Origin: Nocardioides zeae
GTDB lineage: Bacteria > Actinomycetota > Actinomycetes > Propionibacteriales > Nocardioidaceae
DNA length: 64,000 nucleotides
Reading direction: 5' to 3'
Assembly (NCBI RefSeq): GCF_030818655.1
Contig: NZ_JAUTAN010000001.1
Location: 3,348,001 to 3,412,000 of the forward strand
Shown piece after piece: positions 30,774-58,413 of the stretch (positions are counted from its first letter, which is position 1; each line of letters starts with the position of its first letter). A model generated the notes under the pieces. That model ran no database searches and was not told the DNA's origin. It saw only the letters and a program-made list of their open reading frames with translations. The position numbers and the translations under genes were made by a program.

Positions 30774-32124
30774 CCGGTCCCGCGCCGGCCACGGCGGCGA
30801 GCACCCGCTCCAGCTTCCAGCCCGCCTCGGCCCACTCGTCCTCGACGGTCGAGCGGACGGTGATGCCGCCGCCCGTGCCGGCGCGCCAGGTCCGCCCGTC
30901 GCGGCTCGCGAGGCTGCGGATCACGACGCCCAGGTCGGCGCCGTCGCCGTCGAGCCAGCCGAACGCGCCGGCGTACACGCCCCGGGCGCTCGACTCGACG
31001 GCCTCGATGACCTGCATGGTGCGGTGCTTCGGCGCCCCCGTCATCGACCCCGCGGGGAACAGCGCCCGCACGGCCTCGACCGTCGTGACCTCGGGGCGCA
31101 GCTCGCCGACGATCGTGGAGACGAGCTGGTGGACCGCGGCGTACGTCTCCGTGACCATCAGCTCCGGGACCGTCACGGTGCCGGGGCGGCTCACGCTGCT
31201 GACGTCGTTGCGGAGGAGGTCGACGATCATGAGGTTCTCGGCGCGGACCTTCTCGTCGGTGGTGAGGGCGTCGCGCAGCGCCGCGTCCTCCGCCGGGGTC
31301 GCGCCGCGCGGAGCCGTGCCCTTCATGGGCTTGGTCTCGATGCGCCGCGCGCGGCCGACGTCCGTGGGGCCGATGCGGGCGTAGCGCTCCGGGGACGCCG
31401 CGAGCAGCCAGCCGCGGGCGCGCGCCGCGTCGGACGTGCCGGTGACGTCGTGCTGCAGGAAGGCGGCGTACGGCGCGGGCGTCGCGGCCCGGAGCGCGGC
31501 GTACACCTCCGCGGGGGCGGCGGTCGTCGCGGCCTCGGCGCGGTGGGTGAGGTTGACCTCGTAGGACTCCCCCGCGTGCAGCGCCTCCTGCACCTGGGTG
31601 AACGCGGTGCGGTACCAGGCGGGGGGCTGCAACTTTCCCCGGTCGACCGGGGAAAGTGTCGCTTTGACCATCAAATTTGATGCGCTATGTGACACGTTCC
31701 CCGGCCGACCGGGGAAAGTGCCACCAAGTCCACCGACGTGCCGCAGGCGCGAGGGCCGCATCCAGACGGCGTCGGGCGCGTCGGCGGCGTCGCGCCGGGC
31801 GGGCAGGTCGCTCCGCGCGCCGTAGCCCAGCCACCCGAACCACCGCGCCCCCGGAGCGGCGGCCACCTCGCGCTCGAGCACCGTGAACACGTCGTCGCCG
31901 ACCACGACGCCGCGCCAGGCGCCGGGGCGGCCGGTCCAGCGACGTACCTCGCCGGCCGTCGCGTCCCACGTCAGCGACACGTCGTCCTCGTCGAGGCCCG
32001 CCACCACGCTGCGGTCACCCGACCAGGGGCGGCCGGCGGAGCCGTCGAGGAGGACGCAGCGGGGGTACGCCGCGGCGAGGGCCGCGACGTCGGCGTCGGT
32101 CACGCCGGGCGCGGGGGTCGTCAC
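30724..32124 (-). CDS. pabB: Aminodeoxychorismate synthase component I, with a 90-bp palindromic element in frame
   Basis: A 466-residue chorismate-utilizing enzyme. The catalytic C-terminal domain starts near residue 168 (YRTAFTQVQEALHAGESYEVNLTHR) and contains KPMKGTAPRG, AENLMIVDLLRND, FPAGSMTGAPKHRT and the GGGITVRS end block. The N-terminal domain is normal until about residue 135. About 30 residues there are encoded by a repeated palindromic element (31631-31720), which keeps the frame and falls in the interdomain linker. With pabA downstream in overlap it makes 4-amino-4-deoxychorismate for folate or a secondary metabolite. An Ala/Pro-rich tail is extra. Confidence 0.9.
   Translation of the reverse strand: MTTPAPGVTDADVAALAAAYPRCVLLDGSAGRPWSGDRSVVAGLDEDDVSLTWDATAGEVRRWTGRPGAWRGVVVGDDVFTVLEREVAAAPGARWFGWLGYGARSDLPARRDAADAPDAVWMRPSRLRHVGGLGGTFPGRPGNVSHSASNLMVKATLSPVDRGKLQPPAWYRTAFTQVQEALHAGESYEVNLTHRAEAATTAAPAEVYAALRAATPAPYAAFLQHDVTGTSDAARARGWLLAASPERYARIGPTDVGRARRIETKPMKGTAPRGATPAEDAALRDALTTDEKVRAENLMIVDLLRNDVSSVSRPGTVTVPELMVTETYAAVHQLVSTIVGELRPEVTTVEAVRALFPAGSMTGAPKHRTMQVIEAVESSARGVYAGAFGWLDGDGADLGVVIRSLASRDGRTWRAGTGGGITVRSTVEDEWAEAGWKLERVLAAVAGAGPATTPAPAGPPAAPAGS
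31631..31720. repeat. 90-bp tripartite palindromic element, copy A (inside pabB)
   Basis: The outer palindromes contain CCCCGGTCGACCGGGG (left) and CCCCGGCCGACCGGGG (right, one change). The central palindrome is half decayed: ACCATCAAATTTGATG keeps the core, but the right arm no longer pairs fully. The length is exactly 90 bp, as in the copies at 45295 and 58324, in the same orientation. It is read through in pabB and encodes a peptide including TFPGRPG and LSPVDRGK. Confidence 0.92.
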
Positions 32125-32720
32125 CGGGCCTGCTCCAGGAAGCGCGCCACGAGGTCGGCGCCGTGCTCGCTCAGCACCGACTCGGGGTGGAACTGCACGG
32201 CCTCGAGCGGGAGGGTCCGGTGCCGCACGCCGAGCACGACCTCCTGCCCGTCGGCGCCCGTGCAGGTCGCGCTCACCTCGAGCACGTCGGGCACGGCGAC
32301 GGCGCCCAGCGAGTGGTAGCGGACCACGCGGAAGTCCTGCGGCAGGCCCGCGAACACGCCGCGCCCGTCGTGCCGCACCCGTGCGACGTCGCCGTGGGCG
32401 GGGTGGAGGCGGTCGACGCGGCCGCCGTACGTCGTCACGAGCCCCTGCAGCCCGAGGCAGACGCCGAGCACGGGGCGGGTGGCGGCCCGGAGCACCTCCC
32501 GCCCGACCGAGAAGTCCGTCGGCCGCTCGGGATGGCCGGGGCCGGGCGAGAGCACCACGACGTCGTGGGCGAGCACCTCGTCGGCCGTCGTCGCGTCGTG
32601 CTGCACCACGGTCGGCAGCACGCCCGTCACCGACGCGACGAGGTGGGCGAGGTTGTGGGTCGAGGAGTCGCGGTGGTCGACGACGACGACGTCGACCAGC
32701 CCGCCCGTCCGGCCCATCAC
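32121..32720 (-). CDS. pabA: Glutamine amidotransferase (aminodeoxychorismate synthase component II)
   Basis: A 199-residue class I glutamine amidotransferase: oxyanion motif VVLSPGPGHPERP, nucleophile Cys in LGVCLGLQGLVTTYGG and the His-Glu pair in VQFHPESVLSEHG. It supplies ammonia to the synthase component encoded next, with which it overlaps by four bases. GTG at 32720 overlaps the stop of the TrpEG-type gene; an ATG directly after it is an equally good start. Anthranilate synthase component II is possible, but the pairing with pabB favours this call. Confidence 0.87.
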   Translation of the reverse strand: MMGRTGGLVDVVVVDHRDSSTHNLAHLVASVTGVLPTVVQHDATTADEVLAHDVVVLSPGPGHPERPTDFSVGREVLRAATRPVLGVCLGLQGLVTTYGGRVDRLHPAHGDVARVRHDGRGVFAGLPQDFRVVRYHSLGAVAVPDVLEVSATCTGADGQEVVLGVRHRTLPLEAVQFHPESVLSEHGADLVARFLEQAR

Positions 32721-34660: not shown

Positions 34661-34738
34661 GGGCGGGAGCCTACTTTCCGCCGGATCCCGCTGCGTCCGC
34701 GTGTCCACAGGCGCCCGGGCGCTCGGGCGCTCGGACGG

Positions 34739-35995: not shown

Positions 35996-36002
35996 GACGG
36001 GG

Positions 36003-37100: not shown

Positions 37101-37220
37101 GACATCGACTCCTGTGTGGTCGGGTTCGGACAAACAGGAGTTTTTCAGTTGTCTTTGGTTTCTTTCAGGCTGCTCGATATCCGAGACACCACTTGGCCTG
37201 GGCAAACATTCGCTCGCGGA

Positions 37221-38213: not shown

Positions 38214-38319
38214 GTCCCGCACGGTAGGCGCGGGGGTCGGGCAGGGTCGACGGGTTTTCGGGCGCGCAAGATCGGCGCAAGCCGCCGCGCACGTCGGTCG
38301 GAACTGGGAGCATCGTCGC

Positions 38320-38598: not shown

Positions 38599-38636
38599 GG
38601 CCCGGCCAACGCTGGGGAGGGCCCGGCCCGGGCTTC

Positions 38637-38880
38637 GAACTGGGACGCTGGGGCAGCCCGGACCACCCCCGACCTGCCCCAACCGCACATTTTCGGCCCC
38701 CGCCGGGGCCGGCCCGGTCGTCCATCGACCCAGGCCCCGCGGAACATCCAGCGCACAGGGTGAACCAGAACCTCCGCCGCCTCGAGCCTGAGGTCGCCCG
38801 CCCCCGAACTGGGCCGCTGGGGCAGCCCGGACCGCCTCGGACCTGCACCAGCCGCACATTTCCGGGGGCCAGCAGGGGCC
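38637..38880. repeat. Imperfect direct repeat of about 75 bp between convergent genes
   Basis: Copy 1 (38637-38710) and copy 2 (38806-38880) both begin GAACTGGGnCGCTGGGGCAG and continue with CCCGGACC, a variable part and CCGCACATTT, then end in GGGGCC. The copies are about 80 percent alike and 95 bases apart. They lie between the small membrane-protein gene and the glycosyltransferase gene; a transcription-termination or remnant-mobile role is possible. Confidence 0.75.
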
Positions 38881-38897
38881 TGACCCGGGCTAGAGGC

Positions 38898-40031: not shown

Positions 40032-40034
40032 CCC

Positions 40035-42296: not shown

Positions 42297-42481
42297 GTCT
42301 CGTGCCCTCTTCCCACCCGTCACCGGGGCTCTGCGACTCCTCTGCCCGGCGATACGGGCAAGCAGAGAAGCGTACCCCCGCCCCGTGACGAATCGGATTC
42401 CGCGACCGTGGTCCGGCACGCGCCGTACGCCACACCCCGGCGCCCGCCGCCGCGCTGGTGCGACCCCGCACAATGGTGCCC

Positions 42482-43303: not shown

Positions 43304-43339
43304 GGCACGGTTCGGCGGCACGGCTCAGCACGGCACGGC

Positions 43340-44101
43340 TCAGCGGGAGCGGCTGAACCACGCCGTCATCGCCTCGCGGGCCGCGTCGGACCGGAAGAGC
43401 CGCGCGCTCAGCTCGACCATCGCCTCGCCCTCGGCGTCGATCCGGGCCAGCAGCGGCGCGTTGAGCAGCGCCTTCGTCGCCGCGAGGCCCTGCGGGGCGC
43501 CCGTCAGCAGGGACCCCACGACGCGGTCGACCTCGGCGTCGAGCTCCTCGGGGGCGACGGCCGTGGTGACCAGCCCGTACGCCGCCGCCTGCGCCCCGTC
43601 GAACACCTCGCCCCCCAGCGCGGCCAGGGACGCGGCGCGGTCCGTGAGGCGCGGGAGCACCGTGAGGGAGATGACCGCCGGCGTGACCCCCAGCTTCACC
43701 TCGGTCAGCGCGAACGTGGCCGCGGTGCTCGCCACGACGACGTCGGCGGCCGCGACGATCCCGATGCCGCCCGCCCGGACCGGGCCGGGGAGCACGACGA
43801 CGACCGGCTTGGAGTGCGCCACGATCCGCCGCTGCACCTCGACCACCGCCCGCGCCCCCTCCTCCATCGGCACGGTGGCCGCCTCGGAAAGATCGGCGCC
43901 CGAGCAGAAGACGCGGTGGGCCGAGCGCAGCACGACGACCGTGACGGTGTCGTCGGCGTCGGTGGTCGCCAGGTGGTCGAGGAGCTCGGTCACGAGCCGA
44001 CGCGAGAGTGCGTTGCGGTTGCCCGGGGAGTCGAGGGTGAGGGTGGCGACCCGGCCGTCGGCGGTGTCGGCGTGGGTCAGGTGGACGAGCTCGTCGGTCA
44101 T
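43340..44101 (-). CDS. Enoyl-CoA hydratase/isomerase family protein
   Basis: A 253-residue crotonase-fold protein: oxyanion-hole segments HRVFCSGADLSEA and PGPVRAGGIGIVAAADVVVA, then FALTEVKLGVTPAVIS. The position that is Glu in hydratases reads Val/Thr-rich here, so an isomerase or thioesterase reaction is possible. ATG at 44101. It stands alone between two unrelated plus-strand genes. Confidence 0.85.
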   Translation of the reverse strand: MTDELVHLTHADTADGRVATLTLDSPGNRNALSRRLVTELLDHLATTDADDTVTVVVLRSAHRVFCSGADLSEAATVPMEEGARAVVEVQRRIVAHSKPVVVVLPGPVRAGGIGIVAAADVVVASTAATFALTEVKLGVTPAVISLTVLPRLTDRAASLAALGGEVFDGAQAAAYGLVTTAVAPEELDAEVDRVVGSLLTGAPQGLAATKALLNAPLLARIDAEGEAMVELSARLFRSDAAREAMTAWFSRSR

Positions 44102-44170
44102 GGCACCGCATCCTGCCGGTGGCAGGCGCGGGCGTCCACGGCCGGTCCGGCCCGTGGGTACCGTCGCGAC

Positions 44171-45286: not shown

Positions 45287-45294
45287 CGGCCCGT

Positions 45295-45384
45295 CACTTT
45301 CCCCGGTCGACCGGGGAAAGTGTCACTTAGACCATCAATGTTGATGGTCTAAGCGGCGTGTTCCCCGGTCGACCGGGGAAAGTG
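45295..45384. repeat. 90-bp tripartite palindromic element, copy B
   Basis: The left arm is a perfect 28-bp palindrome (45295-45322) around CCCCGGTCGACCGGGG. The centre TTAGACCATCAA/TTGATGGTCTAA (45327-45352) has perfect 12-base arms. The right arm is a 20-bp palindrome (45361-45380). It lies between convergent genes and supplies the last codons and stop of the aminotransferase gene. It can form three strong hairpins and so may terminate both genes. Confidence 0.95.
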
Positions 45385-46717
45385 CCAGCACCTCGTCCAG
45401 CACCTCCACGAACCGCGCGGCGTCGTGCTCGGTGGCGACGAGGGGCGGGCGGACCTTGAGCGTCGAGCCCCACGGCCCGCACACCGAGGTCAGGACGCCC
45501 CGGTCGCGCATGGCGTTGACGACGTCGGCGGCCCGCGCGGACCCGGGCTCGGTCGAGCCCTCCGCGGCGACCAGCTCGACCCCCACGAACAGCCCGTCGC
45601 CGCGCACGTCGGCGACCACGGGGTGGCGCGCGGCGACCTCCCGCACGCCGGCGCGGAGCGCGGCGCCGACGCGGGCGGCGTTCTCCTGCAGGCCCTCCTC
45701 CTCGATGACGTCGAGCACGGCGGCCGCGGCCGCGACGCTGACGTGGTTGCCGCCGAAGGTGTTGAAGTAGGGCACCGTCGACGCGAAGGGCTCGAGCACG
45801 GCGGCCCGTGCGGCCATCCCGGCGATGGGGAGGCCGTTGCCCATCGGCTTGCCCATCGTCACGATCTCCGGGTCGAGGCCGTGGCGCTCGAAGCCCCAGA
45901 ACGCGCTGCCCGTGCGGGCGAAGCCGGGCTGCACCTCGTCCGCGACGAGCAGCCCGCCCGCGGCCCGGACCGCCTCCACTGCGGGGGCGAGGTAGCCGAC
46001 CGGGTGGCTGTGCACCCCGTCGGAGGACAGGATCGAGTCGACGAGGAACGCGGACGGCTGCACCCCGGCGACCGCCATCGCGTCGAGCGCCCGGTGCACC
46101 GCCGCGAGCAGCTCGGCCGCGGGGTCGACGCCCGGGCGGCGCAGGGGGTCGGGCGCGGGGACGGTCCAGACGTGCTCCCCGCGCGGCGCCCCGCGTCCCA
46201 GCGACGGCGACGCGCCGGTCACGAGGGCGGTGTTGCCGTGGTAGGCCTCCTCCGTCACGATCACGCCGGTCCCGCCCGTCGCGGCGGCGGCCACCCGCAG
46301 CGCGAGGTCGTTCGCCTCCGACCCGGTGCAGGTCAGCATCACCTGGTCGACCGCCGGGGGCAGCAACCCGAGGAGACGCTCGGCGTAGGCGACGAGCCCC
46401 GCGTCGACGTACCGCGTGTGCGTGCTCAGCGTCGCCGCCTGCCGGGCCACCGCGGCGGCGACCCGCGGGTGGGCGTGGCCGACGCTGGCGACGTTGTTGT
46501 AGGCGTCGAGGTAGGCCCGACCGTCCGCGTCGTAGAGGTAGGCCCCGCTCCCCCGCACCAGCTCGAGCGGCTCGCGGTAGAAGAGCCGGTACGCCGGGCC
46601 CAGCGCGGCCGCGCGCCGCCGCAGGAGGTCGCCCCCGCGGGTGCCGTCCGGGCCGCCGGGACCGTCCGCGTCGGGCCGGTACGCGTTCGCGTCGAGGATG
46701 CTGGAGCGGGTCGCCAC
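45335..46717 (-). CDS. Class III aminotransferase / phospholyase (ETNPPL-PHYKPL-like)
   Basis: A 460-residue PLP enzyme. The PLP-lysine motif IVTMGKPMGNGLPIAG is characteristic of ethanolamine-phosphate and phosphohydroxylysine phospholyases rather than ordinary class III transaminases. GTG at 46717 sits behind AAAAGGAG. It is divergent from an AGPHD1-like kinase gene: the two would phosphorylate an amino alcohol and then eliminate phosphate and ammonia to give an aldehyde. The last 15 or so residues (LSPVDRGTRRLDHQH) and the stop come from the 90-bp repeat, so the C-terminus is not native to the family. Confidence 0.85.
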   Translation of the reverse strand: MATRSSILDANAYRPDADGPGGPDGTRGGDLLRRRAAALGPAYRLFYREPLELVRGSGAYLYDADGRAYLDAYNNVASVGHAHPRVAAAVARQAATLSTHTRYVDAGLVAYAERLLGLLPPAVDQVMLTCTGSEANDLALRVAAAATGGTGVIVTEEAYHGNTALVTGASPSLGRGAPRGEHVWTVPAPDPLRRPGVDPAAELLAAVHRALDAMAVAGVQPSAFLVDSILSSDGVHSHPVGYLAPAVEAVRAAGGLLVADEVQPGFARTGSAFWGFERHGLDPEIVTMGKPMGNGLPIAGMAARAAVLEPFASTVPYFNTFGGNHVSVAAAAAVLDVIEEEGLQENAARVGAALRAGVREVAARHPVVADVRGDGLFVGVELVAAEGSTEPGSARAADVVNAMRDRGVLTSVCGPWGSTLKVRPPLVATEHDAARFVEVLDEVLALSPVDRGTRRLDHQH

Positions 46718-46878
46718 GGATTCTCCTTTTGGTATGGGACTCGACGCCAGCATGCCCTCCCGGCTTGTTACATCTCGTTTCGGGGCCGTGAAATCCGACG
46801 ACGAATTGGTCTGCTCGACCGATCCAGACGGTCTACTGGTCCCCGAGCGGGACCGTCCCGCCGCCCCGGGGAGGACCC

Positions 46879-47889
46879 ATGCTCAGCGTCGAGGACTGCG
46901 ACGAGATCCTGGCGGCCGCACTGCCGGCGTACGGCGCGGGCGACGCCCCCCGTCGGCTCCTCAGCCTGTCGGAGAACGCGACCTACCTCGTCGGGACGGG
47001 CGCCGACCGGGTCGTCGCCCGGGTCCACCGCCCGGGCTACCAGACCCCCGCCTCCATCGACGCGGAGCTGACCTGGCTGGACCGGCTCCGGGCCTCGGGG
47101 GCCGTCACCGCCCACGCGGTCGTGCCGGCGCTCGACGGGCGCCGCGTCGTCAGCGTGCCGCGGCCCGACGGTGACCGCCACGTCGTCGTCTTCACCTTCG
47201 TCGTGGGCGGCACCGGGGAGGAGCGGCCCGACGCGCTGCCCACCGAGGAGCTCGGCCGCGTCACCGCACGAATGCACTGCGACGTCACCGCGTGGGAGCT
47301 GCCCCCCGGGTTCACCCGCTTCCACTGGGACGCCGCCGCGTGCCTCGGCCCCGGCGCCCGCTGGGGCGACTGGGCCGCCGGCCCGGGGGTGCGCGCCGCC
47401 GACCTCCCCGTGCTCGACGCGGCCGCGCGGACGGTGCGGGCCCGGCTCGCGGCGTACGGGCAGGGCCGCGACCGCTACGGCCTCGTGCACGCCGACCTGC
47501 GCCACGCCAACCTCATGGTCGGCGACGACGGCTCCCTCACGGTCATCGACTTCGACGACTGCGGGTTCGGGTGGTTCCTCTACGACCTCGCGACCGTCAC
47601 CTCGTGGATCGAGCACGAGCCGGAGGCGCAGGCCACGGCGGCGGCGTGGCTGGCCGGCTACCTCACCGAGCGGCCCCTCACCGCCGAGGACCTCGCCATG
47701 GTGCCGACGTTCGTCATGCTCCGCCGCCTCATGCTCACGGCCTGGCTCGGCACCCACCCGGGCTCGCCGCCCGCGCTCGCCCTCGGCACGACGTACGGCG
47801 CGGGCACGGGCGACCTCGCCCGCCGCTACCTCCACGACCCCGCCTGGTTCCGGCTCCCCGTGCCGGCCACCACCCACCGGAAGGACTGA
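46879..47889 (+). CDS. APH-family kinase (hydroxylysine kinase/AGPHD1-like)
   Basis: A 336-residue kinase: [27 protein letters not shown] nucleotide lobe, catalytic loop [12 protein letters not shown], metal site [17 protein letters not shown]. The pattern fits the homoserine-kinase-II/AGPHD1 group of the APH fold. It is divergent from the phospholyase-type aminotransferase gene, the same functional pair as human hydroxylysine kinase and PHYKPL. A short gap (4 bases) leads to an SDR gene, then a GntR regulator. ATG at 46879 follows GGGGAGG. Confidence 0.86.
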
Positions 47890-47893
47890 GACC

Positions 47894-48667
47894 GTGTTCG
47901 ACCTCTCCGACGTGAAGGTGCTCGTCACCGGCGGCTCCCGCGGCATCGGCCTCGGGATCGCGACCGTCTTCGCCCGTGCCGGGGCCGCCGTCGCGGTCAC
48001 CGCCCGCGGCACCGCCGACCTCGAGGCCGCGGCCGCGACGCTGGAGGCCGCCGGCGCCCGCAGCGTCGTCACCGTGGCGGGCGACCTCGCCACGCGGGCC
48101 GGGGCCGCGGAGGTCGTGACGACCGCCGTCGACGGGCTCGGCGGCCTCGACGTGCTGGCCGCCAACGCGGGCATCTTCCCCGAGGCCCGCCTCCGCGACA
48201 TGACGGAGGAGGACCTCGCGCAGGTGCTCGCCGTCAACGTCGGCGGCACCGTGCACGCCGTCCAGGCGGCGCTCCCCGCGCTCGAGGCCTCCGGCCGCGG
48301 CCGGGTCGTGCTCACCTCGTCCATCACCGGGCCGACGACCGGGTTCCCGGGGTGGTCGCACTACGGCGCCTCGAAGGCGGCGCAGCTGGGCTTCATGCGG
48401 AGCGCGGCGCTCGAGCTCGCGCCCGCCCGCATCACCGTCAACGCCGTGCTGCCCGGCAACGTGCTGACCGAGGGGCTGGCGGGCATGGGCCAGGACTACC
48501 TCGACGGTATGGTCCGGTCGATCCCGCTGGGTGCGCTCGGCACCCCGGCGGACATCGGTCACGCGGTAGCGTTCCTCGCGAGCCGCGAGGCCGGCTTCAT
48601 CACGGGCCACGCGCTGGTCGTCGACGGCGGACAGGTGCTGCCCGAGTCGCCCGACGCGGTGGCCTGA
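47894..48667 (+). CDS. FabG-like short-chain dehydrogenase/reductase
   Basis: A 257-residue classical [19 protein letters not shown] cofactor site, NAG in LAANAGIF, catalytic Ser in VLTSSITGP and YGASKAA (Tyr-x3-Lys), ending [12 protein letters not shown]. In this operon it could reduce or oxidise the aldehyde released by the phospholyase. GTG at 47894, four bases after the kinase gene. Three GACCAGGCCC-like tandem units follow its stop. Confidence 0.9.
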
Positions 48668-48713
48668 CGGCCCGACCAGGCCCCGACCAGGCCCGACCAG
48701 GGGAGGACCCACG

Positions 48714-49505
48714 TTGCCGGAGACCGAGGGCGGCGCGGTCGCGGAGGACGTGCGCCGTCGCATCGTGCGCCTCCTCTCCTCGGGCGCGCTGCGGCCCGGC
48801 GACCGCCTCGGCACCGAGCGGGAGATGGCCGAGCGGTTCGACGTCTCCCGGTCCACCCTGCGCAGTGCCCTCGTGCCCCTGGGGCGGGCGGGCGTGCTGG
48901 AGCGCCGTACCGGCCGCGGCGGCGGCACCTTCGTGCGCGCCGGGCTCGTCGAGCGCGAGGCGGCGGAGCGCCTGGGCCTGCCCGAGCGCCTCGACGCGAC
49001 GGGGCACGCCGCCGCCACCGCGCTGCTCGGGTCGGTGCTCCGTCCGGCCGGCGAACCGGAGGCGGCGGCGCTGCGCCTCGCACCCGGTGCGACGGTCGTG
49101 GAGGTGGAGCGGGTGCGGTACGCCGACGGCCTGCCCCTCTCGCTCGACGTCGCCCGGTTCCCGTCCGCGCTCGTGCCCGACCTGCTCGCGCAGCCGTTGG
49201 AGCAGTCGCTCTACGCGCTGCTCGACACGGTCTACGGGCTGCGGCCCGACGTCACCGAGGAGCAGGTGACCGTCGTGCGCGCCAACGAGCGGGAGGCGCG
49301 GGAGCTCGCCGTACCCACCGGCTCCCCGCTCCTCCACGTCACCCGCGTCGCCGCCACCGCGGAGGGCACCCCGTTCGAGCTGTCCGACGACCTGTTCCGG
49401 GCCGACCGGGTGCGGCTCGTCGCGCGGCGTACGTCGCGGAGCGTCGACCGCGCCGAGAGCCGGGCCGCCGACGGGGTCATCGAGATCGGGCTGGGCGCGG
49501 GGTGA
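48714..49505 (+). CDS. GntR-family (UTRA) regulator
   Basis: A 263-residue regulator: N-terminal winged helix (RRRIVRLLSSGALRPGDRLG, MAERFDVSRSTLRSALVPLGRAGVLERR region) and a C-terminal UTRA effector domain (VVEVERVRYADGLPLSLD; YALLDTVYGLRP; ending VIEIGLGAG). TTG at 48714 is preceded by GGGAGGA seven bases away. It probably controls the kinase/SDR and divergent phospholyase genes, but I cannot pick its operator with confidence. It overlaps mobA by four bases. Confidence 0.88.
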   Translation: MPETEGGAVAEDVRRRIVRLLSSGALRPGDRLGTEREMAERFDVSRSTLRSALVPLGRAGVLERRTGRGGGTFVRAGLVEREAAERLGLPERLDATGHAAATALLGSVLRPAGEPEAAALRLAPGATVVEVERVRYADGLPLSLDVARFPSALVPDLLAQPLEQSLYALLDTVYGLRPDVTEEQVTVVRANEREARELAVPTGSPLLHVTRVAATAEGTPFELSDDLFRADRVRLVARRTSRSVDRAESRAADGVIEIGLGAG

Positions 49506-50095
49506 CGCTCGACGTCATCGGTGGGGTCGTGCTCGCCGGGGGACGCGGGTCGCGCCTCGGCGGCGCGCGGAAGGCCGACCTGCGCCACGACGGCACGACG
49601 CTCCTCGACCGCGCCCTCGCCGCGTGCGCGGACTGCGCCGAGGTCGTCGTGGTGGGCGACCCGCCGACGGGCGGTCGCGCGGGGGTGCGGTTCGTGCGGG
49701 AGGAACCCGCGTACGGCGGGCCCGCCGCCGCCCTGCTCGCGGGGGTCGCGGCGCTCGCGCCGGGTACGACGACGGTGGTCGCCCTCGGCGTCGACATGCC
49801 GCTGCTGGACCGCGCCGCGGTGCGGCGGCTGGTGGGTGCGGCCTCGGACCCGGCCGGCGCGTCCGACGGGTCGGTGCTCGTCGACGCCACCGGACGTCGG
49901 CACCTCGCCCTCGTCGTGCGGACCGCGGCCCTGGCGCGCGTCGCCCCGCCGCTCGCCGAGCGCAGCGGGATGCCCCTGCGCCGGCTGCTCGCGGACCTGC
50001 AGCTCGCGCCGGTCCCCGCCCGCGCCGGCGAGGAGGCCGACGTCGACACCTGGGACGACGCCGCCCGGCTCGGGGTGGAGCGCGGCGAGGCCTGA
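49502..50095 (+). CDS. mobA: Molybdenum cofactor guanylyltransferase
   Basis: A 197-residue nucleotidyltransferase: GGVVLAGGRGSRLGGARKADLRHDG is the GTP-binding signature (residues about 7-31), PAYGGPAAALLAGV and LGVDMPLLD (metal Asp) follow. It links GMP to molybdopterin to make the guanine dinucleotide cofactor used by DMSO-reductase-family enzymes such as the one encoded next. GTG at 49502 overlaps the GntR stop. Length is close to the family norm. Confidence 0.9.
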   Translation: MTLDVIGGVVLAGGRGSRLGGARKADLRHDGTTLLDRALAACADCAEVVVVGDPPTGGRAGVRFVREEPAYGGPAAALLAGVAALAPGTTTVVALGVDMPLLDRAAVRRLVGAASDPAGASDGSVLVDATGRRHLALVVRTAALARVAPPLAERSGMPLRRLLADLQLAPVPARAGEEADVDTWDDAARLGVERGEA

Positions 50096-50209
50096 GAGCC
50101 CCTCCCGACGGCACGGATCGTCGACTTCCTGTCACCCGACCCCGGCCGGGACGGGCCTCGCGCGGACGACGCTGGACGCACGGAGAACCAGCCCTGCGAG
50201 GAGCGAGCG

Positions 50210-52393
50210 ATGACCCAACTGATCGAACCGACGGCACCGACCCGCGAGCTGACCGTGCTCGGGGCGTGCCCCCAGGACTGTCCCGACACCTGCGCGATGG
50301 TGGTGACCGTGCGCGACGGCGTCGCGGTCGAGGTGGCGGGCAACAAGGACCAGCCGTACACGAACGGCGGGCTCTGCGTGAAGGTCGACAACTACCTCGA
50401 CCGGGTCTACCACCCCGACCGGATCCTGCACCCGATGCGCCGCGTGGGCCCCAAGGGCTCCGGCGAGTTCGAGCGGATCAGCTGGGACGACGCGATCGCC
50501 GAGGTCGCCCGCCGCTTCACCGCGGTGAAGGAGGAGCACGGCGCCGAGGCGATCATGCCCGTCAGCTACCTCGGCACCCAGGGCATCATCAACGGCCTCA
50601 ACGTCGGCGACGCGTTCTTCAACCGGCTCGGGGCGACCGTCTCGGAGCGCACCTACTGCGACGCGGGCTCGTGCACGGCGTACGCCATGACGATCGGCGA
50701 CACCGCCGGCGTCGACCCCGAGGCCCTCGTGCACTCGCGGTTCATCCTCATCTGGGCCGCCAACATCATGAGCACCAACCTCCACCTGTGGCCCTACATC
50801 GCGGAGGCGAAGCGACGCGGCGCGAAGGTGGTCGTGGTCGACCCGGTGCGCACGAAGACGGCGCGCCTCGCGAGCCAGCACATCCCGATCCGGCCCGGCA
50901 CCGACGGTGCACTCGCGATGGCGATGATGCACGTCATCATCAACGAGGGCCTGACGGACGACGACTACGTCGCGAACCACACGGTCGGGTACGACGAGCT
51001 GGTCGAGCGCGTGCAGCAGTACACCCCCGAGTGGGCGTCGCAGGAGACCGGCATCCCGGTGGAGACGATCGTGACGCTGGCCCGCGAGTACGCCGGCGCG
51101 CAGCCCTCCGTCATCCGCATCGGCGTCGCGGTGGAGCGCCACGCCGGCGGCGGCCAGACGGTGCGGGCGCTGTCGTGCCTGCCCGCGCTGGTGGGCGCCT
51201 GGCGCAAGCCGGGCGGCGGCATCCTGCAGCTGCCGCTGTGGGCGTTCCCGGTGAACTGGGGCGCGTTCATGCACCCCGAGCTGCTGACGCCCGGCACGCA
51301 GGTGGTCAACCAGTACCTGCTCGGCCAGGCGCTGACCGGCGAGCTGGAGCTGACCACGCCGCTGCACGCGCTGATGGTCTACAACTCCAACCCGCTCGTG
51401 GTGGCGCCCGACCAGGCCAAGATGATCGAGGGGCTCTCGCGGGACGACCTGTTCACGGTGGTCAGCGAGCAGTTCATGACCGACACGGCGCGCTACGCCG
51501 ACATCCTGCTGCCCGCCACGACGCAGCTCGAGCAGGAGGACATCATGTTCTCCTGGGGGCACCTCTACGTGACGTACAACAACCCCTCGATCGAGCCCCG
51601 CGGCGAGGCGGTGCCCAACACCGAGCTGTTCCGGCGGCTGTCGGCGGCGATGGGCTTCGACGACGACCCGATCTTCACGCGCACCGACGAGCAGCTCATC
51701 GCGGAGGCGTTCGACTGGTCGGCGCCGGCCATGCAGGGCATCACGGTGGAGTCCTTGAAGGAGAAGGGCTTCTCGCGGCTCAACCTGCCGCCGTCCGACG
51801 AGTACGCGCCCCACCGCGACGGCGGCTTCCACACGCCGTCGGGCAAGACCGAGTTCGTCTCGTCGGCCGCAGCCGGGGGCAACTTCGTCGTGCCCCTCTT
51901 CCGCCAGGGCTCCAACGACCACCAGCCCGGCCAGCCGGTCGACCCGCTGCCCCACTACATCCCGCCGCGCGAGGCGGCGGCGACCGACCCGGGGCTCGCG
52001 GCGCGCTACCCGCTCAACCTCATCTCGCCGAAGTCGCACGCGTTCATCAACTCGAGCTTCGCGAACATCGAGATTCATCAGTTGGTGCAGAAGCCGGCGA
52101 CGCTGCTGGTGAACCCGGAGGACGCCGCCGCGCGCGGCATCACCACGGGGGCGGTCGTCCGGGCGTACAACGACCGCGGCAGCGTCGAGCTGCTCGCCAA
52201 GGTCGACGCGTCGACCATGCCGGGCGTCACCGTCTGCCACGTCGGCCACTGGCGCAGCGACGCGTTGGGCCTGTCCACCCTGTCGCAGCTCAACCCGACG
52301 CGCTTCGCCGACCTCGGGAACGCGCCGACGTTCTCCGACACCCTCATCGAGGTCGCCCTCGTGGTCGACGCGACCCCCGGGGAGGCGCGCTGA
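50210..52393 (+). CDS. Molybdopterin oxidoreductase of the DMSO-reductase family
   Basis: A 727-residue enzyme. The N-terminal [4Fe-4S] site is CPQDCPDTCAM plus GLCVKV. The cofactor domains follow (TDTARYADILLPATTQLEQEDIMFSWG; YPLNLISPKSHAFINSSF region) with the C-terminal dinucleotide-binding barrel. TYCDAGSCTAYAM holds the likely metal-ligand segment. There is no Tat signal, so it is cytoplasmic. The gene is followed at once by ferredoxin and ferredoxin reductase genes, which may exchange its electrons with NAD(P)H. Formate, transhydroxylase-like or unknown substrates are all possible. Confidence 0.88.
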   Translation: MTQLIEPTAPTRELTVLGACPQDCPDTCAMVVTVRDGVAVEVAGNKDQPYTNGGLCVKVDNYLDRVYHPDRILHPMRRVGPKGSGEFERISWDDAIAEVARRFTAVKEEHGAEAIMPVSYLGTQGIINGLNVGDAFFNRLGATVSERTYCDAGSCTAYAMTIGDTAGVDPEALVHSRFILIWAANIMSTNLHLWPYIAEAKRRGAKVVVVDPVRTKTARLASQHIPIRPGTDGALAMAMMHVIINEGLTDDDYVANHTVGYDELVERVQQYTPEWASQETGIPVETIVTLAREYAGAQPSVIRIGVAVERHAGGGQTVRALSCLPALVGAWRKPGGGILQLPLWAFPVNWGAFMHPELLTPGTQVVNQYLLGQALTGELELTTPLHALMVYNSNPLVVAPDQAKMIEGLSRDDLFTVVSEQFMTDTARYADILLPATTQLEQEDIMFSWGHLYVTYNNPSIEPRGEAVPNTELFRRLSAAMGFDDDPIFTRTDEQLIAEAFDWSAPAMQGITVESLKEKGFSRLNLPPSDEYAPHRDGGFHTPSGKTEFVSSAAAGGNFVVPLFRQGSNDHQPGQPVDPLPHYIPPREAAATDPGLAARYPLNLISPKSHAFINSSFANIEIHQLVQKPATLLVNPEDAAARGITTGAVVRAYNDRGSVELLAKVDASTMPGVTVCHVGHWRSDALGLSTLSQLNPTRFADLGNAPTFSDTLIEVALVVDATPGEAR

Positions 52394-52394
52394 C

Positions 52395-52721
52395 ATGGCC
52401 TACGTCATCAACGACGCGTGCATCGACGTCGCCGACAAGGCGTGCCGCGAGGAGTGCCCCGTCGACTGCATCTACGAGGGCGACCGGATGCTCTACATCC
52501 ACCCCGACGAGTGCGTCGACTGCGGCAAGTGCGTGACCGCGTGCCCCAACGGCGCCATCGCCTCGGAGCACAAGCTGAGCGGTGACGCGGAGCGCTTCCG
52601 CGACATCGCCGTCGAGTTCTTCGAGGCGTTCCCCGAGGCCGAGGGCGGTGCCGAGGACGTGGGCGCCGTCGGGTCGGACCACCCGGTGGTGGCCGCCTGG
52701 CCCAGCGGGGGCGGGGCGTGA
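52395..52721 (+). CDS. fdxA: Seven-iron ferredoxin
   Basis: A 108-residue FdxA-type ferredoxin: MAYVINDACIDVADKACREE, then CPVDCIYEGDRMLYIHPDE and CVDCGKCVTACP, giving one [3Fe-4S] and one [4Fe-4S] cluster. The C-terminal 45 residues are an acidic extension longer than usual. The ATG lies one base after the oxidoreductase stop, and the stop overlaps the reductase start. This supports a dedicated electron-transfer chain: molybdoenzyme, ferredoxin, flavoprotein. Confidence 0.93.
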   Translation: MAYVINDACIDVADKACREECPVDCIYEGDRMLYIHPDECVDCGKCVTACPNGAIASEHKLSGDAERFRDIAVEFFEAFPEAEGGAEDVGAVGSDHPVVAAWPSGGGA

Positions 52722-53710
52722 GCGGGGTGGCCGGCGGCGTCGAGGTCGATGTCGACCTCGTCGTCGTCGGCGCAGGGCCCGTGGGCCTGTACGCCGCGTA
52801 CTACGCCGGGTTCCGCGGCATGAGCGTCGCCGTGGTGGACGCCCTCGACCACCTCGGCGGGCAGACGGCCGCCATGTATCCCGAGAAGATGATCTACGAC
52901 GTCGCGGGCTACGCGGCCGTCAAGGGGCAGCACCTCGTGGACGCCCTCGCCGAGCAGGCCTCGAGCGCCAAGCCGCACTACGTGCTGGGCGAGCAGGTCG
53001 TCGACCTCGTGACCGCGCCGGACCACGCGCTGCTCACCACGGCGGCAGGCACGACGCTGCGGGGCAAGGCCGTGCTGCTGGCCGCGGGCATCGGCAGCTT
53101 CAGTCCCCGTCCGCTGCCCGCGGGCGACGGCAGCCTCCCCGGCGTCGTGCACTTCGTGCCGCGCCCGGCGGACTACGCGGGGGCGGACGTGGTCGTCGTC
53201 GGTGGCGGCGACAGCGCCGTCGACTGGGCGCTGACCCTCGAGCCCGTGGCGCAGCGGGTCACGCTCGTGCACCGGCGCGACGCGTTCCGCGCCCACGAGG
53301 CCAGCGTGACGCGCCTGCTCGGCAGCACCGTCGAGGTGCTGACGCCCTACGAGGTCGACGCGGTGCTCGGCTCCGAGCGCGTCGAGGGCGTCCGGCTCGT
53401 CGACGGCGAGGGCGGCCTGGTCGAGCGGTCCGCCGACGTGGTCGTGGCCGCGCTCGGCTTCAAGGCCGACCTCGGGCCGCTCAAGCGCTGGGGCCTCGAC
53501 CTCGACCGGCGCCAGGTGGCGGTCGACCGGGCGCAGCGCACGTCGCTGCCCCGCGTCTTCGCGGCGGGCGACTGCTGCGGCCACCCCGACAAGGTCACGC
53601 TCATCAGCGTCGGGTTCGGCGAGGCGGCGACGGCGGTCAACCACGCCGCCCCCCTCGTCTCCGCCGGCGCCCCCGTGGTCCCCGGCCACTCCAGCGACGA
53701 CCCGCACTGA
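52718..53710 (+). CDS. Thioredoxin-reductase-like ferredoxin--NADP(+) reductase
   Basis: A 330-residue flavoprotein of the type-2 FNR group: FAD site VVGAGPVGLYAAYYAG, LGGQTAAMYPEKMIYDVAGY, NADPH site VVVGGGDSAVDWAL, and VFAAGDCCGHPDKVTLISVGFGEAATAVN at the end. It lacks the CxxC redox pair of thioredoxin reductases. It probably moves electrons between FdxA and NADP. GTG at 52718 overlaps the ferredoxin gene by four bases. Its 3' end faces the opposed 31-bp repeat array. Confidence 0.9.
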   Translation: MSGVAGGVEVDVDLVVVGAGPVGLYAAYYAGFRGMSVAVVDALDHLGGQTAAMYPEKMIYDVAGYAAVKGQHLVDALAEQASSAKPHYVLGEQVVDLVTAPDHALLTTAAGTTLRGKAVLLAAGIGSFSPRPLPAGDGSLPGVVHFVPRPADYAGADVVVVGGGDSAVDWALTLEPVAQRVTLVHRRDAFRAHEASVTRLLGSTVEVLTPYEVDAVLGSERVEGVRLVDGEGGLVERSADVVVAALGFKADLGPLKRWGLDLDRRQVAVDRAQRTSLPRVFAAGDCCGHPDKVTLISVGFGEAATAVNHAAPLVSAGAPVVPGHSSDDPH

Positions 53711-53720
53711 GGGTCGTCGC

Positions 53721-53961
53721 GCGTCGAGTTGGGTTGTACGGCGCGGCTCACGCGTCGAGTTGGGTCGTACGGCGCGGCTCACGCGTCGAGTTGGGTCGTA
53801 CGGCGCGGCTCACGCGTCGAGTTGGGTCGTACGGCTGCGGCGTGCCAGCCGTTCGACCCAACTCGGCGTTCCTGCCGCGCCGTTCGACCCAACTCGGCGT
53901 CCCTGCCGCGCCGTACGACCCAACTCGGCGTTCCTGCCGCGCCGTCCGACCCAACTCGACG
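53721..53961. repeat. Opposed 31-bp repeat array, four direct plus four inverted units
   Basis: Units with core CGAGTTGGGTCGTACGGC begin at 53721, 53752, 53783 and 53814 (period exactly 31). Inverted units with core GCCGTTCGACCCAACTCG follow at about 53851, 53882, 53913 and 53944, again with period 31. The two halves can fold into one long cruciform or hairpin of about 240 bases. It fills the whole gap between convergent ferredoxin reductase and AraC genes, so a termination role is likely. Confidence 0.95.
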
Positions 53962-53966
53962 CAGCG

Positions 53967-54959
53967 TCAGCGGCGGGGGCGCACGACGGCGCGGGGGTCG
54001 CCGGAGGCGAGGCACATGACCTGGCGGTACTCCCGCGGGCTCATGCCGTAGGCCTGGCGGAACAGCCGGCCGAAGACGGCCAGGTCCACGAAGCCCCAGT
54101 TGCGCCCGATCTCCCGCAGCGAGCGGTCCCGCGCGATGCTGCTGCGGATCTCGCGCCGGGCGCCCTCGAGGCGGCGGGTGCGGATCGTCTGCGCCACCGT
54201 CAGCTCGCGGGCCGCGAAGTGCCGGTGCAGCTGGCGCGTCGAGATGCACACGGCCGCCGCGATCTTGTCGGGGTTGAGGTCGGGGTCCGCCAGGTTCGCG
54301 TCGATGAACGCGTCGATGCGGCTGAGCAGCGCCTCCGACCCGACCTGCATGGGCAGCTCGGGCAGAGCCTCGGCCGCGATGGCGACGAGGTCGCCCACGT
54401 GGTCGGCGACAGCGGCCGCCTGGCCCGGTGCGAGGTCGGCGCCCTCCGTCACGAGGCCGCACAGCAGCTCGCTCATGACGCGACCCATGCCCTCCGCACC
54501 GGCGAACGCACGCGCGGTCACCTCGCGGGAGCGGGCCTCGCCGAGGGCGAAGGCCGCCCGCTTCCAGGTGAAGACCGCGAGCTCCCACTGCCGCGCCGTG
54601 CTGGGCGCCCGGAGCCGCCACTCGAACGGGCGCCCCGTCTCGTAGACCACGAAGTCGCCCGGGCCCAGCCGCGCGCTCCGGCCGTCCTGCTCGACGACGG
54701 CCGACCCCGACCGCACCACGCCGACCTGCAGGAGGGCGTCGCCGTCGCGGAGCAGCTGCGGCGTGCGCACGATGTCCTGGTCGACGGACGTGACGGTCGA
54801 GACCTGGACGTGGCCGAGCATGCGGCTCTCCACGGCCCCCTGGAGGTCGGGGGTGCGCCGGTCGACGTCGAGGCGCACGAAGTGCTCCCGCAGCGTGGTG
54901 CGCCACGCGCCCGCGTCGGACGCACGCACCGCCGTCTCCGGCGCGAACTCGTGCAGCAT
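53967..54959 (-). CDS. AraC-family transcriptional regulator
   Basis: A 330-residue regulator. The N-terminal AraC-type ligand domain (about 40-190, LGPGDFVVYETGRPFEWRL) precedes two helix-turn-helix motifs (IAAAVCISTRQLHRHF and IGRNWGFVDLAVFGRLFRQAYGMSPREYR). It is divergent from the moaE operon and convergent with the molybdoenzyme operon, so it may control one or both. ATG at 54959. A substrate of the molybdoenzyme would be the natural inducer; that is inference. Confidence 0.88.
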   Translation of the reverse strand: MLHEFAPETAVRASDAGAWRTTLREHFVRLDVDRRTPDLQGAVESRMLGHVQVSTVTSVDQDIVRTPQLLRDGDALLQVGVVRSGSAVVEQDGRSARLGPGDFVVYETGRPFEWRLRAPSTARQWELAVFTWKRAAFALGEARSREVTARAFAGAEGMGRVMSELLCGLVTEGADLAPGQAAAVADHVGDLVAIAAEALPELPMQVGSEALLSRIDAFIDANLADPDLNPDKIAAAVCISTRQLHRHFAARELTVAQTIRTRRLEGARREIRSSIARDRSLREIGRNWGFVDLAVFGRLFRQAYGMSPREYRQVMCLASGDPRAVVRPRR

Positions 54960-55175
54960 CGCTGGCTCCCTCGCTGGCAGACAGGTCGGAGCGACACCCT
55001 AGAGAACGGTGATGCCACTCACATTCCGGCGATGTTACGGCTGTGGAACGCGGCGGTCCACGGCGTACGACGGGTTCCGCGAGGTTGGCACCGACGGTCG
55101 ACTTCTGGTCGCTGCGCGACGACACCACGACCCCGACGCCGCGCATGCTGGTCGTCCCCCGACCCGGAGGTTGCC

Positions 55176-55727
55176 ATGACCACCACGTCCGTCCCCGCCC
55201 GCACCGAGCACCGCACGGACACGACCTGGTGCCTGGTCGCGCCCCACCTTCCCGACGCCGCGAGCGCCCACGACTGGGCCGTCCGCGACCGCACGGGGGC
55301 GGTGGTGACGTTCCAGGGCGTCGTCCGCGACCACGGGCCCGACCGGGAGCAGGTGCGGGCGATCGACTACGAGGCCTACGCACCGGTGGCCCTCGACCGG
55401 CTCGTCGAGGTCGCCGCGGCCGCGGGCGCGGCCTTCCCCGGCCTGGGACCGGTCGCATTGTGGCACCGCACCGGGCTGGTCGCCCTGGGCGCAGCCAGCG
55501 TGAACGTGACGGTCGCGGCGGGCCACCGCGGGACCGCCTTCGACGCCGCGCGCTTCTGCATCGACGTGCTGAAGGCGACCGTGCCCGTCTGGAAGGTCGA
55601 GCACGACGGCACCGGCTCCCACCGCGCGGACGCCGGGGCCGCCGTACCGGTGTCGGTGGCCGCCGCGGCCCGGGCCTGGCTGGCGGGCCACCACGGCAGC
55701 GACCCGGGCTGCCGGGAGTGCGCGTGA
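55176..55727 (+). CDS. moaE: Molybdopterin synthase catalytic subunit
   Basis: A 183-residue MoaE: VVTFQGVVRDHGPDRE, IDYEAYAPVALDRL, catalytic lysine segments in VLKATVPVWKVE. It converts cyclic pyranopterin monophosphate to molybdopterin with sulfur from MoaD. The protein is about 30 residues longer than usual, mostly at the N-terminus. ATG at 55176 follows GGAGG. It overlaps moaA by four bases. Confidence 0.92.
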   Translation: MTTTSVPARTEHRTDTTWCLVAPHLPDAASAHDWAVRDRTGAVVTFQGVVRDHGPDREQVRAIDYEAYAPVALDRLVEVAAAAGAAFPGLGPVALWHRTGLVALGAASVNVTVAAGHRGTAFDAARFCIDVLKATVPVWKVEHDGTGSHRADAGAAVPVSVAAAARAWLAGHHGSDPGCRECA

Positions 55728-56740
55728 CCCTCCACGACCTGCGGGGCCGGCCCCTGCGCGACCTGCGGGTCTCGGTGACCGACCGCTGCAACTTCCGGTG
55801 CGCCTACTGCATGCCCCGCGAGCTGTTCGGCGCCGACCACGCCTTCCTGGACCGCGGGGACCTGCTCTCCTTCGACGAGGTCGAGGAGCTGGTGCGCGCC
55901 GCGGTGGAGCTCGGCGTCACCACCGTGCACCTCACGGGGGGCGAGCCGCTCCTGCGCCCGGGCCTGCCCGACCTCGTCGCGCGCCTGGCCGCCATCGGCG
56001 GCCTCGACCTGGCGATGACGACGAACGGGGTCCTGCTGCCGCGGCACGCCGCCGACCTAGCCGCCGCGGGCCTCGACCGGGTCACCGTGAGCCTCGACGC
56101 GATCGACGACGCCGTGTTCCGCCGGGCGAGCGACAGCCCGTTCGGCGCCTCGGCGGTGCTCGCCGGGATCGACGCCGCCCGCGCCGCGGGCTTCGGCGAC
56201 GTCAAGGTCAACGCGGTCGTGCGCCGCGGCGTCAACGAGCACCAGGTCGTGCCGCTGGTCGAGCACTTCCGCGGGACCGGCCACGTGCTGCGCTTCATCG
56301 AGTTCATGGACGTGGGCGCCACCAACGGCTGGACCGACGCCGAGGTCGTGCCCGCCGCGGAGATCCTCGCGGCCATCGGCGCCCGCTGGCCGCTCGAGGA
56401 CCTCCCGGTACGCCGCTACGGCGAGACCGCGCGCCGGCTGCGGCTGGCCGACGGCTCGGCCGAGATCGGCGTGATCAGCTCGGTCTCCACCCCGTTCTGC
56501 GGGACGTGCACGCGGGCGCGGGTGACCGCGGAGGGCCGGATCCACACCTGCCTGTTCTCGACCGGCGGCACCGATGCCCGTGCACTGTTGCGCGGTCGGC
56601 GGCGGCCCGGGGACCTCGCGGAGCTGCTGTCCGGACTGTGGAGCACGCGGTCGGACCGCTACTCGGAGGTACGCGCGGAGGTCCGCGCGGCGGGCACCCG
56701 CCGGGCGGCACCGGTGGAGATGTCGTACATCGGCGGCTGA
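55724..56740 (+). CDS. moaA: GTP 3',8-cyclase
   Basis: A 338-residue radical SAM enzyme: SAM-cluster motif RCNFRCAYC (Cys22, Cys26, Cys29), LTGGEPLLRPGL, MTTNGVLL, and the C-terminal GTP-binding cluster in CGTCTRARVTAEGRIHTCLF. It ends in the conserved Gly-Gly tail needed for activity. It catalyses the first step of molybdenum cofactor synthesis. MoaC, its usual partner, is not in the window. GTG at 55724. Confidence 0.94.
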   Translation: MTLHDLRGRPLRDLRVSVTDRCNFRCAYCMPRELFGADHAFLDRGDLLSFDEVEELVRAAVELGVTTVHLTGGEPLLRPGLPDLVARLAAIGGLDLAMTTNGVLLPRHAADLAAAGLDRVTVSLDAIDDAVFRRASDSPFGASAVLAGIDAARAAGFGDVKVNAVVRRGVNEHQVVPLVEHFRGTGHVLRFIEFMDVGATNGWTDAEVVPAAEILAAIGARWPLEDLPVRRYGETARRLRLADGSAEIGVISSVSTPFCGTCTRARVTAEGRIHTCLFSTGGTDARALLRGRRRPGDLAELLSGLWSTRSDRYSEVRAEVRAAGTRRAAPVEMSYIGG

Positions 56741-56792
56741 GGCCGGCGGACCAGGTCGACCTGACGACCGACCAGGAGAAGGAGGACGGACC

Positions 56793-57029
56793 ATGGCCAG
56801 GCTGCTGCTCTTCGCGACGGCCCGCGACGCCGCCGGGACGACGCGCGACGCGTTCGACGTCGCCACGCTGGGCGAGCTGATGACCGCCGCACGTGACCGG
56901 TACGGCGCACCGTTCGCCCGCGTGCTGCCCGGGTGCCGGGTGTGGGTCAACGGCGAGGACGTCGCCGACGACCGCCCGCTCGCCGTCGGCGACGAGGTCG
57001 CGGTCATCCCGCCGGTCGCCGGTGGCTGA
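56793..57029 (+). CDS. moaD: Molybdopterin synthase sulfur carrier subunit
   Basis: A 78-residue ubiquitin-fold protein ending in VAVIPPVAGG, the C-terminal Gly-Gly that is thiocarboxylated. It donates sulfur to MoaE. The ATG at 56793 lies behind GGAGGA. It overlaps moeA by eight bases, so the stop and the GTG start of moeA are interleaved. Confidence 0.93.
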   Translation: MARLLLFATARDAAGTTRDAFDVATLGELMTAARDRYGAPFARVLPGCRVWVNGEDVADDRPLAVGDEVAVIPPVAGG

Positions 57030-58314
57030 CACCCGGCCGCCGGCGGGCGCGCCCGGCGGCTGCTGCACGGACGACCCGACGCTGCGGGGGGTCGAGGACC
57101 TCCTCGCCGACGTGCTCGGCGACCTCGCCGCCACCGTGCCGGTGGCCGTCGCCCCGTCCGAGGACCCCGCCGGCGTCCTCGGGCTGGTGCTCGCCGAGGA
57201 CGTGCGGGCCACCGCTCCCCTGCCGGGCTTCGACAACGCCGCCATGGACGGGTACGCCGTCGACCACCGCGACGTCGCCGACGCCACGCCCGACGCGCCG
57301 GTCACGCTCCCCGTGGTGGGGGCCGTCGCGGCCGGTTCCGGTGGCGCCCCTCCCCGCGTCGCGCGGGGCCGGGCCGTCCGCATCATGACCGGCGCCCGGA
57401 TGCCCCCGGGCGCGACGGCGGTCGTGCCGTGGGAGTCGACCGACCGCGGCTCCGCGCGGGTCGAGGTGCACCACGGCGTCCACGAAGGGCGCCACGTGCG
57501 CCGTACGGGCGAGGACGTCGCGTGCGGCGACCTCGTCGTCGCCGCCGGTACGACGCTGCGGGCGCGCCACCTCGGCGTCCTGGCCGCGCTGGACGTGCGC
57601 ACGGTGCGGGTGCACCCCGCGCCCCGCGTCGCGGTGGTCGCCACCGGGTCGGAGCTGCAGCCCGCCGGGGAGCCGTTGCGTCCCGACGGGATCCGGGACT
57701 CGGGCGCGACGCTGGTCGGCGCCTCCGTCGTCGAGGCCGGGGGCGTCGTCATGGCGACCCGCACGGTCCCGGACGACCCCGCCGCCCTGGAGCAGGCCCT
57801 CGCGGAGGTCGCCCCGCTGGCCGACCTCGTCGTGACGACCGGCGGCGTCTCCGAGGGCGACCACGACGTCGTGCGGCTGACGCTGGCGGGCCGCGGGTCG
57901 ATGTGGTTCGGCCGCATCGCGATGCAGCCGGGCAAGCCGCAGGGCTTCGGCCGCCTCGAGGCCGGCGGACCGCTGCTCTGCTGCCTGCCGGGCAACCCGG
58001 TCGCCTCCTTCACGTCGTTCCACGTGCTGGTGCGCCCTGCGCTCGCCCGGTTGCGCGGCGCCTCCGTCGCCTGGCCGACCTCGTCCGCCGTCCTGGCCAC
58101 CGACCTGGACTCGCCCGCGGACCGGCTGCAGCTCGTGCGCGCCACCCTCGAGCACGGGGACGACCTACCGCGGGTCACGCCCGGTGGCACGGCCTCGCAC
58201 ATGGTGGGGGCGCTCGCCCGCAGCGACGTGCTCGTCGTGGTGCCCGTCGGCGTGACGCGGCTGAGCGCCGGCGCGACCGTCACCGTGCTCCGGATCGACC
58301 CCGAGCCGCTTTAG
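57022..58314 (+). CDS. moeA: Molybdopterin molybdenumtransferase
   Basis: A 430-residue MoeA: PGFDNAAMDGYAVD, GRAVRIMTGARMPPGATAVVPWE, the molybdate-insertion domain TTGGVSEGDHDVV and LLCCLPGNPVASFTSF. It inserts molybdate into adenylylated molybdopterin. A Cys-Cys pair near the N-terminus (residues 14-15) is outside the family core. GTG at 57022. A copy of the 90-bp palindromic element begins ten bases after its stop. Confidence 0.93.
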   Translation: MADTRPPAGAPGGCCTDDPTLRGVEDLLADVLGDLAATVPVAVAPSEDPAGVLGLVLAEDVRATAPLPGFDNAAMDGYAVDHRDVADATPDAPVTLPVVGAVAAGSGGAPPRVARGRAVRIMTGARMPPGATAVVPWESTDRGSARVEVHHGVHEGRHVRRTGEDVACGDLVVAAGTTLRARHLGVLAALDVRTVRVHPAPRVAVVATGSELQPAGEPLRPDGIRDSGATLVGASVVEAGGVVMATRTVPDDPAALEQALAEVAPLADLVVTTGGVSEGDHDVVRLTLAGRGSMWFGRIAMQPGKPQGFGRLEAGGPLLCCLPGNPVASFTSFHVLVRPALARLRGASVAWPTSSAVLATDLDSPADRLQLVRATLEHGDDLPRVTPGGTASHMVGALARSDVLVVVPVGVTRLSAGATVTVLRIDPEPL

Positions 58315-58323
58315 GCGGACCGA

Positions 58324-58413
58324 CACTTTCCCCGGTCGACCGGGGAAAGTGTCGCTTAGACCATCAATATTGATGGTCCAAGTGGCGTGTTCCCCGGTCG
58401 ACCGGGGAAAGTG
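58324..58413. repeat. 90-bp tripartite palindromic element, copy C
   Basis: The left 28-bp palindrome (58324-58351) is the same as in copy B. The centre TTAGACCATCAA/TTGATGGTCCAA has one wobble pair (58356-58381). The right palindrome is at 58390-58409. It lies between the convergent moeA and transporter genes and does not enter either frame. Orientation and length match copies A and B. Confidence 0.95.

Follow-up and report, generated by a model that had tools for sequence, protein, structure and literature searches.

How does a 90-bp palindromic element come to stand at three places in one stretch of the Nocardioides zeae genome, once within the reading frame of a metabolic gene, and which protein might have spread it? 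The stretch in question, hereafter the window, comprises the 64,000 nucleotides at G000:C1:3348001-3412000, where G000 denotes the N. zeae genome, a single contig of 4,380,404 bp. An original prediction, made from the letters of the window, placed three copies in the same orientation at 31631-31720 (copy A), 45295-45384 (copy B) and 58324-58413 (copy C), all on the plus strand, and these coordinates were borne out by a re-search. The element is probably a one-gene unit in its gene-less form, mobilised in trans within a two-component system that resembles REPIN/RAYT and contains an AbiEi-nuclease.

The element and its gene-bearing form

The family proved larger than the three copies first proposed. 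A search of the G000 genome with the 90-mer returned 25 full copies, together with half-copies at 1064092, 1417524 and 1418735, and a pattern for the core hairpin, allowing up to three mismatches, has 53 sites (25 x 2 + 1 + 2) where the reversed control pattern has none. The mean identity of the copies is 91.7% over 27 compared rows, a value that includes duplicates in that copies B and C were entered twice (as L004 and L001), leaving 25 distinct rows. According to our own simple codon-usage gene finder, 18 of the 26 classified copies lie between convergent genes, seven between tandem genes, none between divergent genes and one inside a gene.

Each 90-mer is laid out as two 28-bp outer hairpins around one central hairpin (H, C and inverted H'). 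In copy A the first outer hairpin, with the core CCCCGGTCGACCGGGG, occupies 31631-31658 and the second (CCCCGGCCGACCGGGG) 31693-31720, both as read from the sequence; the central hairpin (GACCATCAAATTTGATG), supported by sequence and fold, occupies 31659-31692 (all plus strand). This division into three hairpins is an interpretation, the lowest-energy fold being one long hairpin. Allowing up to two mismatches, the core CCCCGGTCGACCGGGG has six sites in the window, every one inside copies A to C, against 0.63 expected from shuffles. Folded as single-stranded DNA (plus strand), each of the three copies forms one long hairpin of -36.8 to -44 kcal/mol, with z values of -9.6 to -13.8 and none of 200 shuffles equally good. 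An Rfam scan of the window returned no family at its cut-off.

Outside the window, at G000:C1:1417524-1418735, two inverted half-copies enclose the gene for a protein designated P0001, and this layout, H-C-[gene]-C'-H', occurs once in G000. P0001 combines an AbiEi-type winged-helix N-terminus with a domain (residues 202-312) whose predicted fold is Vsr-like/EDxHD, with Vsr and the homing endonuclease I-Bth0305I as its matches. The N-terminal assignment is supported by a fold match to 6y8q, by PADLOC AbiEi models, which match the N-terminal half, and by PF13338, which is found in P0001 and in 21 of the 23 members of the group A2. Within A2, residues E205, E248, D250 and K254 are invariant and D237 nearly so; within A3, E205, D237, E248 and D250 are invariant; these are candidates for the catalytic residues of the EDxHD motif (3r3p). 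Neither the A3 profile nor P0001 gave a relevant match when the PDB was searched by sequence.

The REP-type (repetitive extragenic palindromic) transposase that the original prediction suggested looking for in trans was not found, and a gene for a different protein lies between the element ends. A search for the Y1 transposase (Y1_Tnp, PF01797) had no match in G000; the same search matches 5 of 14 control genomes, and other transposase families were not searched. No toxin gene was found beside P0001, whose unit, the only one tested, holds one recognisable gene and for that reason is not an AbiE toxin-antitoxin pair; of two neighbouring open reading frames (ORFs) that were scanned, one is a PBP-family gene and the other lacks a Pfam match. 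A gene within the window (25445-26506), first judged by eye to be a relative of the nuclease, was rejected, having neither a Pfam match nor a flanking inverted repeat (score 10). A second AbiEi-like gene in G000 (L060, G000:C1:3890339-3891175) is accompanied by its own dispersed palindromic family of about 92 bp, beginning GTGTAACGCGGTGTCCGGGC, and TGTAACGCGG ends similar to that family stand beside related genes in other genomes.

Genes and repeats across Nocardioides

Homologues of P0001 are present in 133 of 147 Nocardioides genomes (E <= 1e-10), and the palindrome-flanked layout recurs with them. In a first set of 31 loci, flanking inverted repeats score at least 20 at 24, the cross-locus control for this set having a long tail (99th percentile 105). 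A larger set, the best 80 of 326 loci from named Nocardioides and Marmoricola, which possibly overlaps the first, has, by the same measure, diverged palindromes around relatives of P0001 at 68 loci; the corresponding controls gave 0/156 for shifted windows, 38/1500 for cross-locus pairs and 6/253 for further genes predicted at those loci. Counted by flank, a palindrome reaches the cut-off in 113 of 159 gene flanks as against 7 of 313 control windows. Both neighbours were called at 78 of the 80 loci, and at 52 of those 78 the gene unit lies between convergent genes. The outer hairpins vary in sequence while their pairing is kept: in a set of 107 distinct hairpins, selected for complementarity, all four pair types occur at many positions. 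Counted without the shifted control, the layout is found at 14 of 30 loci of distant family members within the genus and is rarer outside it, at 6 of 29 loci (30 less L059, from G000 itself). At two loci from other families of the class (L236 and L255), AbiEi-like genes lie near palindromic direct repeats, and these may be related systems.

Gene and repeat also match genome by genome. Nine gene-flanking elements were joined as one query and searched in their nine source genomes, and in all nine the palindrome that flanks the gene was also found elsewhere in the same genome, at from at least one to at least 29 places among the matches listed. Among those matches the places outside the unit numbered 29 in G012, 27 in G034, 14 in G084, 13 in G124, 12 in G076, 10 in G085, six or seven in G100 and six for the second family of G000. 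Two listed matches in G100 fall off its own segment of the query, one (query 315-384) on the segment of another genome and one (383-450) straddling two, and they could be explained by the five homologues that G100 holds. A hairpin pattern has 2620 sites in the 147 genomes, and its reversed control has three; the median count is 12 in genomes with a homologue as against 1 in the 14 without (p 0.0036, uncorrected for kinship).

Insertion and turnover in related genomes

Copy A was predicted to lie in frame in pabB, and it does: the minus-strand ORF 30724-32124, a pabB-like gene for a chorismate-binding enzyme (PF00425), reads through it, and residues 135-165 are coded by the element. Copies B and C carry a stop in the frame that is open in copy A, so the open frame is a property of copy A and not of the element. 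When 13 PabB homologues out of 120 listed were aligned, the linker was variable in all, three held the element-derived segment and the ten more distant proteins lacked it, as had been anticipated; the genome holding 25 full copies in all, the segment is neither general in pabB nor unique to it. The DNA of two related genomes, G235 and G171, has the element at this position in pabB too. The insertion, taken by the original prediction to be recent, is thus real and clade-specific and not strain-recent, since three related genomes share it and the ten other homologues aligned are without it.

These two genomes are also the only ones besides G000, among 215 genomes of the genus, in which the 90-mer was found at E <= 1e-8, with at most four candidates scored per genome. 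Weaker matches, mostly to the hairpin, occur in 8 of 36 other genomes of the same genus and in 0 of 21 genomes of other genera. In the blocks that align to the window, identity is 85-94% for G235 and 89-94% for G171. A search for orthologous sites, which used six of fifteen joined flank pairs, yielded the empty site that had been called for: copy L002 is cleanly absent from its site in G235. No target-site duplication was seen at this one site, where the flanks have diverged. G171 has both copies B and C; G235 has neither, and beside the aminotransferase gene of G235 the element is missing. Gene order over window 44178-58421 differs among the three genomes, block 50107-58316 sits elsewhere, and copies B and C stand next to the breakpoints.

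In G171 the hairpin type at orthologous sites has changed in a lineage-specific way. The pabB copy is 74% identical to that of G000 and 85% to eight other G171 copies, with flanks 93% identical, and copy C is 81% identical to its G000 orthologue versus 88% to other G171 copies. Both orthologous copies measured therefore resemble copies of their own genome more than their orthologues, and their hairpins are of the G171 type; judged from these comparisons, the pattern resembles concerted change, brought about by overwriting or by re-insertion. Two intermediate forms exist: in one G171 copy the ends stand about 120 bp apart, and in a decayed gene-bearing unit of G159 (L281) the gene has an internal deletion but the two inverted ends remain. 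The left neighbour of L281 resembles, by eye, that of L084.

As for the other genes around the window copies, copy B lies between the convergent glutamate-cysteine ligase family 2 (GCS2-type) gene at 43814-45286 (plus strand) and a class-III aminotransferase ORF at 45335-46753 (minus strand), which ends inside it; the copy codes the C-terminal tail of the aminotransferase, from about residue 457 of 472. Copy C lies between convergent moeA (ORF as listed, 56893-58314, plus strand) and a membrane transport gene (PF03547; 58424-59488, minus strand). Other repeats of the window include a second palindromic pair (GGACGTCATGCG...CGCATGACGTCC) at 61096-61151 and 61390-61445, possibly another dispersed family; 61-bp direct repeats, 89% alike, at 38636-38696 and 38805-38865; and, at 53717-53961, two adjoining blocks of 31-bp-period repeats with oppositely oriented units.

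Explanations and known systems

If P0001 does drive the spread of the element, its winged-helix part would recognise the palindromes, which is plausible because binding to inverted repeats, along with autoregulation, is reported for AbiEi antitoxins (PMC7319586). The nuclease part would then nick or cut the palindromes or the target, and host repair would copy the element into new sites, mostly shortly after stop codons, at times overwriting older copies. The gene copy would act as the source and the gene-less element would be mobilised in trans, a mode of action proposed for RAYTs on REPINs (PMC3116915). Binding, cleavage and trans action by P0001 are what we infer from the layout and the predicted fold. 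A wider claim, the chance of which we put somewhat below even, is that AbiEi-Vsr fusion nucleases form an undescribed class of mobile element, spreading and overwriting palindromic mini-elements by homing-like cut-and-repair, with repeats that in some lineages evolve in concert and occasionally add peptides to metabolic enzymes.

Several observations weigh against this proposal. In G068 only one place outside the unit was found among the matches listed. Several of the 14 homologue-free genomes hold 11 to 24 hairpins, and a profile search detected distant relatives in all 18 genomes classed as 'absent or weak', so that the association between gene presence and hairpin count is only suggestive. 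In G235 each of the three copies that were compared matches its G000 orthologue more closely than it matches other copies of G235; concerted evolution as a general rule of the family, seen in G171 (2/2) and contradicted in G235 (0/3), was accordingly rejected.

The leading alternative assigns the repeats a regulatory or terminator function. On this view the palindromes serve the AbiEi-like gene as operators and bidirectional terminators, the dispersed copies have been co-opted as terminators and carried around by ordinary recombination, and the protein is a regulator and not a mobiliser. The strength of the hairpins, the many copies and gene units between convergent genes (18/26 and 52/78) and the autoregulation described for AbiEi proteins all fit this view. 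It is nevertheless unlikely, for it leaves unexplained the nuclease-like predicted fold, the in-frame pabB copy, the 25 full copies with their mean identity of 91.7% and the altered hairpin type of G171. An ordinary miniature inverted-repeat transposable element (MITE) of a conventional transposase encoded elsewhere, with the AbiEi-like gene caught between two copies as a passenger or a defence gene, is an improbable explanation: a gene-less element with terminal inverted hairpins is typical of MITEs, but relatives of the same gene lie between different palindromes at 68 of 80 loci and in both G000 families, a recurrence that strains this reading, as do the genome-by-genome matching of elements and the result of the Y1_Tnp search. 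A strict REPIN/RAYT system with a Y1 transposase would account for a palindrome-flanked gene and dispersed inverted pairs, but is scarcely credible given that search and the different predicted fold of the flanked protein.

Our preferred explanation, a palindromic element mobilised by an AbiEi-nuclease, would give a role to a gene family that occurs in most Nocardioides genomes under the name of AbiEi antitoxins; it would also explain the dispersed palindromes of Nocardioides and provide a testable bacterial system of repeat spread. The similar gene-and-repeat sets in many Nocardioides genomes suggest an undescribed route by which tiny repeats spread. In the literature searched (titles and the starts of abstracts, with partial coverage) REP-like repeats were nowhere linked to AbiEi or DUF559 genes, and the main texts of RepRanger (PMC12306157) and PMC3733652 do not contain 'nocardioid'.

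Among known systems, Rickettsia palindromic elements, described as palindromes of about 150 bp for which an in-frame location within genes is possible (PMC10969869), share the in-frame position. The Nocardioides element differs in its 90-bp length and in having a gene-bearing form, and the close parallel originally drawn is not supported because an in-frame insertion is the exception in this family (1/26). The AbiE type IV toxin-antitoxin systems share the N-terminal fold and the PADLOC models, whereas the present unit lacks a toxin gene and its protein bears a C-terminal nuclease-like domain. To Vsr-like/EDxHD homing endonucleases such as I-Bth0305I the likeness lies in the predicted fold; P0001 differs in its AbiEi N-terminus, and no intron was seen. 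The closest resemblance is to REPIN/RAYT, in which a gene is flanked by palindromes that also occur as dispersed, gene-less inverted pairs, mostly outside genes (PMC3116915), and REP super-families carry a GTAG or CGTC tag at one REP end (PMC3733652). The Nocardioides palindromes likewise stand on both sides of a gene and are scattered, mostly outside genes, in inverted pairs, but the unit has a third, central hairpin and its protein joins an AbiEi winged helix to a Vsr-like predicted fold; it would work like REPIN/RAYT without being a member, since the Y1 transposase was looked for and not found. To our knowledge, REP-like repeats have so far been tied to one enzyme class, the Y1 transposases, and an equivalent gene-plus-repeat layout recurs here with an enzyme annotated as an antitoxin.
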